From Myxococcales bacterium (lineage in GTDB: Bacteria; Myxococcota_A; Polyangia; Polyangiales; Polyangiaceae), in the NCBI GenBank assembly GCA_021778125.1, contig JAJYCT010000009.1, positions 1 through 37,914 on the forward strand: a stretch of DNA of 37,914 nt, in the 5' to 3' direction. Made by a program: the position numbers and the translations under genes. Shown here one piece after another: positions 25,972 to 34,076 of the stretch (positions are counted from its first letter, which is position 1; every line of letters starts with the position of its first letter). The notes beneath the pieces are model-generated. The model was not told where the DNA came from. It saw only the letters and a program-made list of their open reading frames with translations, and searched no databases.

Positions 25972-28959
25972 TCATCGGCGCCTGCGGCGCAGCAAGGCCG
26001 CCGCGGCGACCAGCGAGCCGGTCGCCGCGAGAGCACCGCCGCGCCAGTCGCCGGGTCCGATCTCGCACCCGCATCCAGAGCCATTTTTCGCGGGAGCGCC
26101 CGTGCCCGCGTCGGGAGCGGTCTCCGCCAAGTGCCTCACGCAGCGCGCGTAGCCCAGGCCTGATCCCGACACGCCGTCCACGGTGCCGAGATTGAACGTG
26201 ACCATCCACGCGAACCCGGGCGAGCCTTCGTTCGGCGTCGAGCTCCAGTAGAGGTCCCCCTTGGCGTCCTCGAACGACGGATCGATCGCGGCGCCGGCGT
26301 GCGTGCCGTCGTACTGCACGAGCCCTGCGAGCTCGCTGACGTTGGGCAGGTGCCAGCCCGAGAGGCCGCCGAGCGACAGGCCGGCGCAGTACGACAGCGA
26401 ATCGTTCCAGGAGCGCCGAACCCCGTCGTCGCGACGTTGCCACTCGAGGCCCGTCGTCTCGTCGCGCACCGTCTGCGTCATGGCGACGAGCGGGCCGGCC
26501 GCGCGCAGCCCGACGCTGCCGGCGTTCAGGATCCTGCTGGCGCCGCGGACGCAGCGCACGGGAAACTGCGTGTCCATGAGCAGCGGGATGACGGGGCCGT
26601 CGTCGAACTTCACGGTCCACGCGAGCATCTTCGAGGACGCCTCGAGAGTGGACGTCCAGTAGTTGGTGGGCTGCGCGCCCTCGAAGAGGGAGCTTGTCGC
26701 CGGGTCGGTCGCCCCTCGATCGACGAGCGTCGTGAGCTCGATGACCGAGGGCAGCCTCCAGCCGGTCGAGCCCTGCGAGCCGCGGAACGCCGCGCAGTGC
26801 GAGACCGCCGAAGGCTGGTCGTACGCCCTGCCGTCGTCGCTCGCCTGCCAGACGAGGCCCGTCGTCGTGTCGGCGATCTCGTCCGGCGCGGACTTCACGA
26901 ACGCTTGCGTGTCCGGCTGGAAGTCGCCGTCCTCGAGCGGGTAGCCCGGCGCCGGACACGGCAGGTCCTGCTTCGCCTCGGTGGCGCAGGTCACGACGCC
27001 CGTGCGGTAGAGCGGTGGATGCGGCGACGCCGCGCGCGGCGCCAGGCCCGCCTCCGGCGCCGACGCCTCCGGCGCGCTCGCGTCGGCCTGGAACGCCGAG
27101 GCGTCGATGCCCGCATCACCGTCCGGCGGCAGGCGCGCCGGCGAGAAGATCTCCGCGAACGGGATGCACGTCTGCGGGTTGCACCCGCCGCCCACGAGCA
27201 CCCGCCCGTCGGCGAGCTCCACGCCGATGTGGTACGCGCGCGACATCATCATCGCCGACGTCTCGAGCCACTGGCGCGCGACGGGCAGGTAGACCTCCGA
27301 CGTGGGCACGCTCGAGCCGCTCACGTCCGCGCCCCCGGCCATCAGCACCTCGCCGGTCTGCAGCAACGTGGCGGTGTGGTGGTGTCGCGCGCCCGCCATC
27401 GGGGGAGCGGGTGAGAAGCCCCCGCCCGCGCCGAGCGGAGCCCAGGTCTCGGCTGTCGCGAGCACCGTGCTGCAGCCCGCGTCCGAGCAGCCTCCGGCCA
27501 CCAGCACGCTGCCGTCGGCGAGCAGGGTCGCCGTGTGTCCCGCGCGCGGCGAGGTCATCGATCCTGCGTCCGACCACGTACCGGCAGCCGGATCGTAGAC
27601 GGTCGCGTCGCCCAGAACGGTCGCGCACCCCGGGTCCGCGCAGCCGCCCACGACGAGCACGCGTCCGTCGGCCAGCGCCGTCGCGGTGCCGTACCCGCGC
27701 GGGGCCGCCAGCGCGGGCGCGTCGGACCAGGTGTTGGTGGCCTCGGTCCATCGCTCGGTGCTCGTCGTGCAGCCGCCGACGTCGCAGCCGCCCGCCACCA
27801 AGGCGCCGCCGCCGATCGCGACGCCCATCACGCTCGCGCGCGGTGACGAGAGCGAGCCTGCGGCGATCCAGGCGCCCGTGGCGAAGGAATAGCGCTCGGC
27901 TAGCGCCGTCGTGGCAGTGCAGACCGATGCAAAGCAGGCTCCAGCGTCGTTCATCTGCGTGCAGTTGGTCGCCGTGCACCCGCCGGCCACGAGCAGGTCG
28001 CCCGTGGGCAGGGGCATTCCGGCGAACGCGGTGCGCGCCGTCGACATCGGAGGCGCGGACGTCCATGTGCCCGAGGCGGGGTCCCACAGATCGCTGTTGG
28101 CCAGGATCTGCCCGCACGCCGACTGCGCGAAGCTCGTCGGGCAGTTGGTGAGCCCGCAGCCGCCCACCGCCATCACGCGGCCATCCGGGCGGCGCCACGC
28201 GGCGTCTCCCCAGTGAGAGACGGTCATCGTCCCCGTGGTGGACCAGTCGGGATCGACCAGGATGGGCGCGCGCATCCCCGTCAGATCGATGTCGAGGATG
28301 ATCCTGCGGCCCTCGACGTGCACCGCTCCCCGCCGCCTCGTGCCGTCAGCCGCCCGGGCGAGCGGAGCGCTCAGACGGAGGCGCGCGATGCCATCCTTGC
28401 CGAGCACCTCCAGGTTCGTCCCCGCCTCGCGCAGCTTCCAGACGGCGCCGCCGGTGTCGAACTCGAGCTCCCGCGTGAGCCTCGCCGGAGGATCGCGCAG
28501 GTAGACGTACTCATCGACGTGCGTGGGCGTCAGCTTGTAGAGCAGGTCGCCGCCGGCGACGGCGCCGCGATAGACGACGACGCCGTGGTGGACCTCGGCG
28601 GGCACCGGCCGCATCCCGATCTCCTCGGTGCGCACCGAGAAGCCGTCGACCCCGTGAAACGCGACCACGTGCGCAGCGCTCGCAATCGCGGGGAGCCTCG
28701 CGTCGAGCGTCTGGCCGGCGGCATCGTGCCGGAGGACGAACTTCGAGTGCAGCGTCTCGTAGAGCGGAACGAGCGATCCGTCCGCCGCGCGCTCCAGGCC
28801 GAGATCGGCGACCATGCCGAACCACTTCTTCGTCGCGCGGAAGTGCCCCGCGATCTCCGCGAGCAGCGGATCCTGCTGCTGCGAGCCGGCCGGTTGCGCG
28901 CTCAGGAGGCAGGCTGTCCCCAGCAAGACGGACAGCAGCGCCCTCGGGGATGGGCTCAT
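25972..28959 (-). CDS. Kelch-repeat protein with two DUF1566 (Lcl) domains and MYXO-CTERM-like C-terminus
   Basis: Repeated GRVLVVGGCxxPGC...TATLLADGSVLVAGGC; W..RLPSVIELTTLVDRG and WHLPNVSELAGLVQYD; C-terminus GCGCEIGPGDWRGGALAATGSLVAAAALLRRRRR. Confidence 0.85.
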   Translation of the reverse strand: MSPSPRALLSVLLGTACLLSAQPAGSQQQDPLLAEIAGHFRATKKWFGMVADLGLERAADGSLVPLYETLHSKFVLRHDAAGQTLDARLPAIASAAHVVAFHGVDGFSVRTEEIGMRPVPAEVHHGVVVYRGAVAGGDLLYKLTPTHVDEYVYLRDPPARLTRELEFDTGGAVWKLREAGTNLEVLGKDGIARLRLSAPLARAADGTRRRGAVHVEGRRIILDIDLTGMRAPILVDPDWSTTGTMTVSHWGDAAWRRPDGRVMAVGGCGLTNCPTSFAQSACGQILANSDLWDPASGTWTSAPPMSTARTAFAGMPLPTGDLLVAGGCTATNCTQMNDAGACFASVCTATTALAERYSFATGAWIAAGSLSSPRASVMGVAIGGGALVAGGCDVGGCTTSTERWTEATNTWSDAPALAAPRGYGTATALADGRVLVVGGCADPGCATVLGDATVYDPAAGTWSDAGSMTSPRAGHTATLLADGSVLVAGGCSDAGCSTVLATAETWAPLGAGGGFSPAPPMAGARHHHTATLLQTGEVLMAGGADVSGSSVPTSEVYLPVARQWLETSAMMMSRAYHIGVELADGRVLVGGGCNPQTCIPFAEIFSPARLPPDGDAGIDASAFQADASAPEASAPEAGLAPRAASPHPPLYRTGVVTCATEAKQDLPCPAPGYPLEDGDFQPDTQAFVKSAPDEIADTTTGLVWQASDDGRAYDQPSAVSHCAAFRGSQGSTGWRLPSVIELTTLVDRGATDPATSSLFEGAQPTNYWTSTLEASSKMLAWTVKFDDGPVIPLLMDTQFPVRCVRGASRILNAGSVGLRAAGPLVAMTQTVRDETTGLEWQRRDDGVRRSWNDSLSYCAGLSLGGLSGWHLPNVSELAGLVQYDGTHAGAAIDPSFEDAKGDLYWSSTPNEGSPGFAWMVTFNLGTVDGVSGSGLGYARCVRHLAETAPDAGTGAPAKNGSGCGCEIGPGDWRGGALAATGSLVAAAALLRRRRR

Positions 28960-29377
28960 CGCACGCTCGTGCGTGTTGTCGGCGACATCGTGCGCACCCG
29001 CCGAGGGCACATAGCCATGCGTACGGGCCTCGGCCATGACGGGCGTCATGAAGACCCGTTGAACGACCCGTGCGCCGAGCGCGTCTGCTGCGGGCGTGGG
29101 AGCACGCTGCAGTAGCGGGTCATCCTCCCGATCAGATCCTCGCTGAGGCCATCGATCGCTGCACCCGGCGCGCCCTTGGAAGCGGCCTTGAGGGGCCGGC
29201 TCTGCACGCTCTTCGCGCCGAATTGGAGAGACGTCCATCGCTGGATCGCCCAGCGCGGCCACCGGATGGGCACGCCGGTGAGAGACGTCGAGCGATCGCT
29301 GGCCGACATCATCGTTCACCAGGTCGCAATCCAGAGAGCACACAGGAGCTGACGCCGAGAGGCTCGGCCGGCGCGGG

Positions 29378-30799: not shown

Positions 30800-31345
30800 G
30801 TGGCCTACATGACCCTTGAACAGCTGCGGAGGTACGCACGCCCCCGCGTCCCTGTCGGCGTCGGCGGCATCGTCAAGGAGGCGAAGAAGTTCCGGCCAGG
30901 CACTGACTTGTTCCTGTCGCACTCGCATCTTGATCGACCGGCACTGGACCAAGTAGAGGACTTCTTCTCCACGTTCGGGGCGACGGCATATCGCGATGTC
31001 GACGACGATCTGCTCCCGACCTCGCCATCCGGAACAACGGCACACACGCTGCGGGACCGGATCGCAAACTGCCGCCGCTTCGTGGTGGCAACCTCAGCCA
31101 ACGTTCGAACTTCGCGATGGATCCCGTGGGAGCTCGGCTACGCGGACGCGAAGAAGGGGCTGGAGAATATCGCCCTCCTCCCAATCGCTCCCGACGCAGC
31201 GGTTACTGCGGTCGTGGAGCAGGAGTACCTGGCGATCTACCCGGTCATCGAACGCATCCGGCTCCAAGGCCAGGACAAGGAGCGGTGGTGCGTCAAGGAT
31301 CCTCGCGACGGTACCTGGTGGACCATCGAGCAGTGGCTCGCTTGA
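30800..31345 (+). CDS. TIR-domain protein (TIR A)
   Basis: GTG start after GGGAGGAACC; GTDLFLSHSHLDRPALDQVEDFFSTFGATAYRDVDDDLLP...LRDRIANCRRFVVATSANVRTSRWIPWELGYADAKKG with candidate catalytic Glu in WEL. Confidence 0.8.
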   Translation: MAYMTLEQLRRYARPRVPVGVGGIVKEAKKFRPGTDLFLSHSHLDRPALDQVEDFFSTFGATAYRDVDDDLLPTSPSGTTAHTLRDRIANCRRFVVATSANVRTSRWIPWELGYADAKKGLENIALLPIAPDAAVTAVVEQEYLAIYPVIERIRLQGQDKERWCVKDPRDGTWWTIEQWLA

Positions 31346-31430
31346 CTGAGCGGGCGGCGCTGGCGCCCAAGCCCTTGTCGAGTCGGGTGTCCTTGGCTGT
31401 CGCTTGGCAGCGACCACGGTTCAGGAGAAC

Positions 31431-31997
31431 ATGTGTCGCATGAGCCAGCTCCACAGGGTCTTCGTCAGCTACCACCATGAACTCGATGAATCTCGGAGGA
31501 AAATCTTCGAGTTGCGTTTTGGCAATCGCTTTGGCGCGATCATCCCTGGCGCAGTGAGAGTCGGCGACATTGATGAGACGCTGCCGACGGAAACCATCCG
31601 CCAGAAGATCCGCGACGAATATCTGCGCGATACGTCTGTGACGGTCGTACTTGTCGGCGCCTTGACTTGGCAGCGCAAACACGTTGACTGGGAGATCGGA
31701 TCCTCAATTCGGAATACGCCCGCGAATCCAAGATCGGGGTTGCTTGGGATCATGCTCCCGTCCTATTACGACCACCACTTCGGTGGCCGGATAGGGAAGT
31801 ACGACCCGTACACGATCCCCCCACGCTTGCACGACAACGTCGAGGCCGGCTTCGCAACGCTGCACCATTGGAGCGAGGATCCGAAGGAGGTCCAAGCCTG
31901 GGTGCACGAAGCGTACCTGCGGAAGGGTCGCGTGCAGCCGGACAACGGGCGCCCGTCATTCGCCAAGAATCGGTCAGGTGATCGCTGGGAACGTTGA
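31431..31997 (+). CDS. TIR-like (DUF1863/MTH538, ThsB-like) protein (TIR B)
   Basis: HRVFVSYHHELDESRRKIFELRFGN...LPTETIRQKIRDEYLRDTSVTVVLVGALTWQRKHVDWEIGSSIRNTPANPRSGLLGIMLPSYY; RBS AGGAG. Confidence 0.85.
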   Translation: MCRMSQLHRVFVSYHHELDESRRKIFELRFGNRFGAIIPGAVRVGDIDETLPTETIRQKIRDEYLRDTSVTVVLVGALTWQRKHVDWEIGSSIRNTPANPRSGLLGIMLPSYYDHHFGGRIGKYDPYTIPPRLHDNVEAGFATLHHWSEDPKEVQAWVHEAYLRKGRVQPDNGRPSFAKNRSGDRWER

Positions 31998-32051
31998 TCG
32001 CGCGCGCGGAAGACGCATCGCGCTTCGGGACTCCTGGTGCGACGAGGCTGC

Positions 32052-34076
32052 TCACGCGGCAGACATGCGCCCCATCAGCAGGAGTTCGACGATCCGGTTT
32101 GGATCACGAGAGCGGAATAGCTCTCGGTTCTCATCTACGGAGAGACCATTCTGCAGCGCGAGCCCGTCGACGCCCACCGTGCGGAAGAACGTGACCATTT
32201 CATCGTAGTTCTCCCAAAGAACTCCCTGCTGGCCGTAGATCTGGCGCATACCTTCCGCGAAAGGGGCAGCCTTCTGGTAGTCCCAAGTGAACTCCGGCCG
32301 GCAGCGGCCCTCAAGCAGATCAGCCACGACCTCGGCCGCCCCGCCGAACCCGCCGCAAACAAACAACGGTTGCCCAGCCCGTAGGGTCAGCAGAGCCTCC
32401 TCGATGACGCCTGGTATGCGTCCTGAGTACCAAGTCACGCGCTGTCCTCCGTCAGGCTGAGCCGAGAGGGTGGGCCCGACCTTGCCCCCGAGGATCACTC
32501 GCGCCTGCACATCGGCGACTTGCTGTTCTCGCATGGTCGTCATGCCGCGGGCCCATGCGTAGCGCCGCGCGGCAGAAGAGGGAGTGAAGAACTCTGGCTC
32601 TTCGACGAACGTCGCGGGTTCCAAGTGCTCGATGCCCGCCGGTCGCGCTACGCGGACGTAGGTCGCCATCGCCTGAAAGGCTGCGAGCGTCGCCTTCGGC
32701 AGCGTCTTGAAAGGCAACGGCCAGCCCACGTAGTTGCGGACTCGTTCGAACGTTGGGAGCTTGCTCGACGCATCATGCGCCTGCACCAGCTCGAACAACC
32801 GTGCAGTGTACCCCTCGTTTCCGAGGTGGCCACCGTAGGCCAGGCTGGCGCCCCGGACGAGGAGGTGGCGGGAGACCTCCATGAGCACGGCCTCGAGGTG
32901 ATCGACCAGCAGGCCGTGGCGCGGCAGGTCGTCGCTCTCCGATATCGAGAGCGCGATAGCGCGGCCCTGCAGGCGGCGGTCCCTCCCCGCCCGTTGGAGG
33001 GGCGTCTCGAGCTGGTGCCGGAGCGGCGCCAGCAGCTCCAGTTCCTCGTCTCCGAGCGGCGGATCTGGATAGAGCACCGTGGCTCCGCTGGGCAGCCCGA
33101 TGAGCTTCGCCGCCTCCGGCGGCGCCGTCAGGACGTGGTCGCTGCCCGCCTGCTGGCGCCTCAGCAGCCGCTGGACATGGAGACGCCGCAGTGTCTCCTT
33201 GAGGAGCAGGTCGACGGCGCCCTGGGCGCCGACGCTCGTCCAGGACACCACGGGTACGTTGCCCAGGTAGGGGAAGCCGCGGAGGTCGAGGCCCTCCAGC
33301 GCATCGACGACCACGATGGGGCGCTGGTGCTCCTTGGCGAGCAGCACCTCGCGCCGGCACCACGTCCGGCTGCTATAGTGCTTGGTGAGAAGGACCAGGA
33401 GTTCAGAGTCCTGCACTCCCGAGGCGATCGCTTTCCCGAACTCGGAACCGCCCTCGATGCGGGCGCTGTCGATCCAGGTATCGATTGGCTTTGTGGCGTC
33501 GAGGTGGTCGACCAGGCTCTTGAAAACCTGCGGTTCGGCGGCCACGTCCGCTTTCGCATGGCTGAGAAACAGCGTCACGGGGACGCTCGTGCCGGCGTCC
33601 TGGCCCAGGAGGAAGCGGCAGAGCTCCACAACGGTTCGCCGCACAATCCACGTTGTTCGTGCCTCGCCGGCGGCCTCGCGATAGGCGGGTGGAAAACTGA
33701 CCCCTCTCAGACGCGCATCCAGCGGCCAGGCGTGAGGGGTGAGCTGGAAGGGCAGCATCCGATGCGGGCTGCCACTGCAACGGGCCCACGTCTCGGCGAC
33801 GAAGGATCCCCATGGTTGGCGTCCGGCGACGAGATCCGTCGGGGTGACTACCATCTCGTCGTCCGCGAGCACCACCACGAGACTCAGGTCGGCAGCGTCA
33901 ACCGGTAGCAGCTGGGGGGGGAGGCCCGTGCCGTCCTCCGGCACGAGCAGCGTTGGCACGCGCAGGCCCGGGAGCGCCGGGTCGTCGTTCAGTGCGCGGT
34001 GGATCGCGACGGCGAGCGCGCGGCCCTCCTTCGACTCGGGATGGAAGACCAGATGGACAAGGAGCGGCGTCGTCAT
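32052..34076 (-). CDS. Multidomain TIR-SLOG-like protein (N-terminal TIR-like, central TIR, C-terminal SLOG/LSDAT-like)
   Basis: LVHLVFHPESKEGRALAVAIHRAL; VTLFLSHAKADVAAEPQVFKSLVDHLD...SELLVLLTKHYSSRTWCRREVLLAKEHQRPIVVVDAL; then GRAIALSISESDDLPRHG...GASLAYGGHLGNEGYTARL and PLFVCGGFGGAAEVVADLLEG Rossmann motifs. Confidence 0.8.
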   Translation of the reverse strand: MTTPLLVHLVFHPESKEGRALAVAIHRALNDDPALPGLRVPTLLVPEDGTGLPPQLLPVDAADLSLVVVLADDEMVVTPTDLVAGRQPWGSFVAETWARCSGSPHRMLPFQLTPHAWPLDARLRGVSFPPAYREAAGEARTTWIVRRTVVELCRFLLGQDAGTSVPVTLFLSHAKADVAAEPQVFKSLVDHLDATKPIDTWIDSARIEGGSEFGKAIASGVQDSELLVLLTKHYSSRTWCRREVLLAKEHQRPIVVVDALEGLDLRGFPYLGNVPVVSWTSVGAQGAVDLLLKETLRRLHVQRLLRRQQAGSDHVLTAPPEAAKLIGLPSGATVLYPDPPLGDEELELLAPLRHQLETPLQRAGRDRRLQGRAIALSISESDDLPRHGLLVDHLEAVLMEVSRHLLVRGASLAYGGHLGNEGYTARLFELVQAHDASSKLPTFERVRNYVGWPLPFKTLPKATLAAFQAMATYVRVARPAGIEHLEPATFVEEPEFFTPSSAARRYAWARGMTTMREQQVADVQARVILGGKVGPTLSAQPDGGQRVTWYSGRIPGVIEEALLTLRAGQPLFVCGGFGGAAEVVADLLEGRCRPEFTWDYQKAAPFAEGMRQIYGQQGVLWENYDEMVTFFRTVGVDGLALQNGLSVDENRELFRSRDPNRIVELLLMGRMSAA

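Follow-up and report, generated by a model that had tools for sequence, protein, structure and literature searches.

The stretch of DNA analysed here, a window of 37,914 nucleotides from a Myxococcales bacterium, contains two genes for small TIR proteins (TIR-A and TIR-B) next to a gene for a 674-residue protein in which a TIR domain is joined to a SLOG domain. We consider it probable, with odds of roughly two in three, that this locus is a Thoeris-like anti-phage system, in which a TIR-made signal would act through the SLOG domain to trigger NAD+ loss by an effector TIR. This view is based on the domain content, the conserved catalytic and pocket residues, the homology to type III Thoeris and the gene linkage, all of which are observed at the sequence level, and it borrows signal production, SLOG binding, NADase activation and defence from what is known of Thoeris. 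In the proposed mechanism, TIR-A and TIR-B would respond to phage infection, perhaps as two sensors for different triggers, and would use NAD+ to produce a signal of the ADP-ribose type. Binding of this signal to SLOG in the 674-residue protein would let the effector's own TIR domain assemble and destroy NAD+, thereby stopping phage growth.

The sequence-only reading had described the small TIR pair as convergent with the large protein, and the positions and strands of all three genes hold. TIR-A (30800..31345, plus strand) is separated by 85 nt from TIR-B (31431..31997, plus strand), which in turn lies 54 nt from the gene for the TIR-SLOG protein (32052..34076, minus strand, with its ATG at 34076). 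It counts against the preferred reading that the two small TIR genes run towards the effector gene instead of sharing an operon with it. Profile searches of the 5.9-Mb genome gave TIR_2 or ThsB_TIR matches above the cut-off only for TIR-A, TIR-B and the 674-residue protein, and LD_cluster2 was found as a single copy in the latter. The trio is therefore more than a chance arrangement. The third-position G+C content of the TIR-A and TIR-B genes is 0.73, as compared to 0.77-0.91 for the other genes of the window. The adjoining genes are ordinary (a nuclease, a phosphoesterase, sensor kinases and a Kelch-repeat protein), with no evident defence island among them in the window, and a scan for promoters and terminators gave nothing above chance. 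Elsewhere in the window, and with no relation to the TIR genes, positions 25972-29343 on the minus strand encode an 1123-residue myxobacterial protein that contains Kelch repeats as well as two Lcl_C domains and is likely to be exposed on the surface or secreted.

TIR-A is a small ThsB-like TIR protein of 181 residues and a predicted signal-making enzyme. Its gene starts with a GTG at 30800, immediately preceded by GGAGG, and stops at 31345. The protein matches the Pfam families TIR_2 (E=2e-8) and ThsB_TIR (2e-4) and, over its full length, the PADLOC ThsB model PDLC00436 (148.6 bits, E=3e-44). TIR-B, likewise a predicted signal-making enzyme, has 188 residues if its gene starts at the ATG at 31431 and 185 residues if it starts at 31440, the position favoured by the homologues; the stop is at 31997. 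Its earlier assignment to the ThsB type is confirmed by a ThsB_TIR match with an E-value of 7e-15, and ThsB structures were among the first Foldseek matches of its structure model (pLDDT 79). Both proteins keep a glutamate at the expected catalytic position, as had been proposed: E111 of TIR-A (codon 31130-31132) is invariant in an alignment of 8 relatives, and E88 of TIR-B (31692-31694), located in a DWE motif, is invariant in 15 relatives.

The AlphaFold model of the 674-residue protein, the predicted effector (pLDDT 87.9, pTM 0.87), shows an N-terminal Rossmann-like region, the TIR domain, a helical linker and the SLOG domain, in this order. The N-terminal region (residues 1-164; 33585..34076, minus strand), modelled as alternating strands and helices, is conserved among relatives and is also found in the TIR proteins of loci where TIR and SLOG are split. 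The idea that it represents a degenerate TIR was rejected, since the Rossmann-like model is not matched by profile support (hhalign, 0.3%). The effector TIR domain (residues 170-257; 33306..33569, minus strand; TIR_2, E=3e-9) carries the catalytic glutamate E243 at 33348-33350, and the claim that this residue is retained was borne out in every row of the effector alignment that covers the TIR core. Foldseek with the model showed a resemblance of this domain to NADase TIRs, namely those of SARM1, AbTir and SPARTA; when the whole effector served as the query, only its TIR was ranked. When the TIRs were placed in a tree, 53 of the 55 from effectors clustered separately from the small TIRs with an SH-aLRT value of 78, which is a modest support for groups that were labelled by profile searches. 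No SIR2 or macro match was obtained for the 674-residue protein in profile searches.

Further TIR genes are a recurrent feature of TIR-SLOG loci in other genomes, as had been anticipated. Upon removal of duplicates, 36 of the 51 sampled loci had a further TIR gene within 5 kb of TIR-SLOG. When these loci were sorted by layout, a further TIR ORF was present within this distance in 20 of 31 loci with a fused gene, 16 of 19 split loci and 0 of 1 SLOG-only loci, and for fused proteins of the size class found in the window the proportion was 11/14. The density of TIR ORFs amounted to 1.67 per 10 kb within 5 kb of TIR-SLOG versus 0.25 beyond, as determined with TIR profiles that were seeded from the same loci and were identical for the near and far regions. 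The small TIRs are not obligatory, however, because 15 of the 51 loci, some of them on short contigs, had no second TIR nearby and because a few TIR-SLOG loci adjoin patatin, DUF4062 or STAND genes instead. The complete trio of TIR-A, TIR-B and TIR-SLOG recurs in Myxococcota (L036/L072), and in Agrobacterium (L080) and P. veronii (L048) a TIR-A relative and another small TIR are found together with split TIR and SLOG genes.

Relatives of the TIR-SLOG protein, drawn from scans of genome contigs, plasmids and E. coli genomes, were detected in Planctomycetota, Myxococcota, Bryobacterales, Cyanobacteria, Bacteroidota, Bacillota (a Priestia plasmid), rhizobia, Pseudomonas, a Klebsiella plasmid and E. 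coli, where they occur in 16 of 5,426 genomes. The closest ones, with 62% identity, belong to Corallococcus and one Planctomycetota MAG. The protein is split in many Proteobacteria, with TIR and SLOG encoded by two adjacent genes. Within the phylum, LD_cluster2 was found by a profile search in 12 of 379 genomes. A relative of the whole protein is absent from 37 nearer genomes, and none of the IMG/VR viral contigs encodes one.

Several of these loci contain additional genes or domains. In the E. coli isolate UK_Dog_Liverpool (L054:4088-7991), an uncharacterised protein, two small TIRs, a TIR and a SLOG are encoded together and annotated as TIR or hypothetical only; a protein of similar length to the uncharacterised one adjoins a small TIR in Priestia (L045). 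Close TIR-SLOG relatives lie beside a patatin-like phospholipase in Corallococcus carmarthensis (L056:5868-15297), where a TIR protein and a TIR-AAA-HEAT protein are also encoded, and in L063:8929-12184. A Kofleriaceae MAG (L026:954-11286, on a contig shared with L058) combines TIR-SLOG with a TIR-NB-ARC-TPR protein of the layout of plant TIR-NLRs, a TIR-B relative and, on the opposite strand, a second TIR-SLOG protein. In L057:320-1708, the TIR-SLOG gene is adjoined by one for a protein with DUF4062 and FGE-sulfatase domains; DUF4062 was recently reported to be a TIR-like NADase (PMC13174449). In a Planctomycetota MAG (L055:11652-16409), TIR-SLOG is immediately followed by a gene for a 1586-residue protein, a candidate repeat-based sensor that has many WD40 repeats and matches TIR weakly. 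Lastly, four Myxococcota TIR-SLOG proteins bear an extra C-terminal caspase-like CHAT protease (L027:8168-11896, L030:7339-11001, L037:7427-11086 and L038:6421-10458), and two of the four genes adjoin TIR-B relatives. These fusions may connect SLOG-type sensing with protease effectors and suggest that SLOG is a switch whose executioner can vary.

The SLOG domain that had been suspected in the C-terminal half of the large protein is indeed present (residues 369-653; 32118..32972, minus strand), as it matches the Pfam family LD_cluster2, 'SLOG cluster2' (PF18163), with an E-value of 8.7e-68. It is the predicted signal sensor. Nearly invariant in this domain are S377, G388, G409, Y414, G416, R516, R526, G530-G531, P555-G556, E559-E560, G575 and G578-G579. 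ThsA binds cADPR isomers through R371, K388 and E403, and its S288 is located in the pocket (PMC7272460, PMC10022894); these published residues were located on the ThsA sequence. An hhalign alignment of the SLOG family with ThsA, which is weak on its own with a probability of 32%, places R516, K532 and E560 opposite R371, K388 and E403, respectively, and a shared LSxS motif places S377 opposite S288. Among these residues, K532 is retained by some family members only. The STALD model of ThsA is also hit, at its cut-off or close to it, by some TIR-SLOG relatives, and a search of solved structures with the SLOG family found no relative.

These residues bear on the question of whether the domain could itself be an enzyme, which, in the manner of LOG proteins, would act on NAD+, ADP-ribose or a nucleotide and would thus make or remove the signal rather than sense it. 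LOG-type hydrolases do belong to the SLOG superfamily (PMC9503650), and a GG.GG motif is present in the domain. The VCGGFGGAAEV motif singled out by the sequence-only reading resembles the LOG motif PGGxGTxxE, but its glutamate, E582, varies within the family (E/A/R/S/G/L), and LOG-type catalysis was rejected for this reason. Since the LOG glutamate varies and the counterparts of the ThsA pocket are kept, a sensor pocket is more likely than an enzyme, and we regard the enzymatic alternative as improbable. The conserved ligand-type pocket also argues against a model of co-assembly, in which the small TIRs would make no diffusible signal and a phage protein would instead induce a mixed filament of these TIRs and the effector TIR, with SLOG serving as a nucleotide-gated brake or scaffold. 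TIR domains act through self-assembly in many systems, and the resemblance of the effector TIR to TIRs that form filaments or oligomerise is in line with such a model. However, the small-TIR families differ widely among loci that share the effector, and the effector TIRs group by themselves; this is easier to reconcile with a diffusible message than with a common interface. We therefore consider co-assembly unlikely.

It is also conceivable that the TIR-SLOG protein needs no partner, its own TIR making the signal and its SLOG giving feedback, and that the small TIRs belong to independent defence functions and are no more than clustered neighbours. The loci without a second TIR within 5 kb are compatible with this idea, which nonetheless appears very unlikely to us, given that the clustering of TIR genes is far above the local background and that the genome of the window has no TIR gene above the cut-off outside the locus. 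Our doubts are greater still with respect to a myxobacterial module that would serve development or stress signalling and have no role against phages. This option, to which we attach hardly any weight, would be consistent with the myxobacterial host and with the fact that known defence genes do not adjoin the locus, but not with the absence from the 37 nearer relatives and the patchy occurrence across distant phyla, plasmids and E. coli, which point to a mobile, defence-like distribution.

If the proposed signal relay from TIR enzymes to effector TIR is correct, one fold family would both make the message and execute the response, with a SLOG switch in between, and the locus would reveal which ADP-ribose derivatives are read by a second SLOG family. 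The TIR-SLOG family is widespread, including on plasmids and E. coli chromosomes, and the split genes of E. coli (L054) would make signal, sensor and killer separable for study in laboratory strains. The effectors in the Thoeris descriptions that we found are SIR2, membrane-macro and caspase-like proteins. A more far-reaching, tentative proposal, which we rate at somewhat below even odds, is that the locus represents a Thoeris type not described so far, whose TIR enzymes would signal through an LD_cluster2 SLOG to a TIR effector, perhaps with a new ADPR-type messenger, and which would belong to a modular superfamily (fused, split, with CHAT, or beside patatin) with interchangeable sensors, including TIR-STAND proteins. 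No named match above the cut-off was found for the TIR-SLOG protein in PADLOC (2023) or NCBIfam (2026), and a literature search of limited coverage returned no description of type III Thoeris or of a TIR-SLOG effector. The SLOG clusters in Pfam reportedly take their names from the classification by Burroughs and Aravind. For a type VI Thoeris, PMC13232231 cites a 2025 preprint on TIR-based signalling systems. There is a real chance that LD_cluster2 TIR-SLOG proteins have already been catalogued, and this preprint may cover the present locus type.

Among the named systems, TIR effectors of CBASS and CRISPR systems (TIR-STING, TIR-SAVED, Cat1) likewise have a nucleotide sensor fused to a TIR NADase, but in the window the predicted sensor is a SLOG domain and the partners are TIRs rather than a cyclic-nucleotide synthase or Cas10. 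Type IV Thoeris consists of a TIR and a caspase-like protease (PMC12847820) and shares with the proposed reading that a TIR makes the signal for a separate effector; the CHAT protease is present in some TIR-SLOG relatives, but the protein in the window has no protease domain. Type II Thoeris, defined by a ThsA with macro and transmembrane parts, does not apply, as none of the three proteins has a macro match. The sequence-only reading had compared the layout with type I Thoeris (the SIR2-SLOG protein ThsA plus ThsB). At the sequence level, the Thoeris-like character stands, with TIRs of the ThsB type as judged by PADLOC and Pfam, invariant catalytic glutamates, alignable pocket residues and a SLOG domain joined to a predicted NADase. 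However, this NADase is a TIR instead of SIR2 and the SLOG is LD_cluster2 instead of STALD; type I was rejected, with neither SIR2 nor STALD in the protein and no STALD in the genome, and the nearest system is type III. The TIR and SLOG pairs of E. coli and Klebsiella (L054, L047) have an LD_cluster2-type SLOG, the same effector TIR family and adjoining small TIRs, and differ from the window in that TIR and SLOG are separate adjacent genes, annotated as TIR domain-containing or hypothetical. In NCBIfam, type III Thoeris is represented by ThcA (NF058525, cut-off 110 bits) and ThcB4 (NF058526, cut-off 220 bits). Membership by these curated models was rejected, as both remained below their cut-offs: ThcA had no match in the window protein or its genome and reached 23 bits on the Priestia relative, and ThcB4 scored 23 bits on the window protein and 43 bits on the best split relative. 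In two Myxococcota genomes with ThcA above the cut-off, small ThsB_TIR genes are accompanied by ThcA and a TIR protein of 390-432 residues, which matches ThcB4 above the cut-off in one genome and below it in the other. ThcA corresponds to Pfam LD_cluster3, a different SLOG cluster, and the SLOG family of the window aligns with it over 89% of the length (hhalign, E=2.4e-6), including the GG, MR, GGK and PGxxE stretches. As in type III Thoeris, the locus in the window unites small ThsB-like TIRs, an N-terminally extended TIR and a SLOG, and its layout is thus partly described already; it differs in that TIR and SLOG are fused and the SLOG is of LD_cluster2 rather than LD_cluster3. These shared modules and the alignment with ThcA preserve the kinship despite the failure of both curated models, and, judged from the sequences, the locus is the counterpart of type III Thoeris with a fused effector and an LD_cluster2 SLOG.
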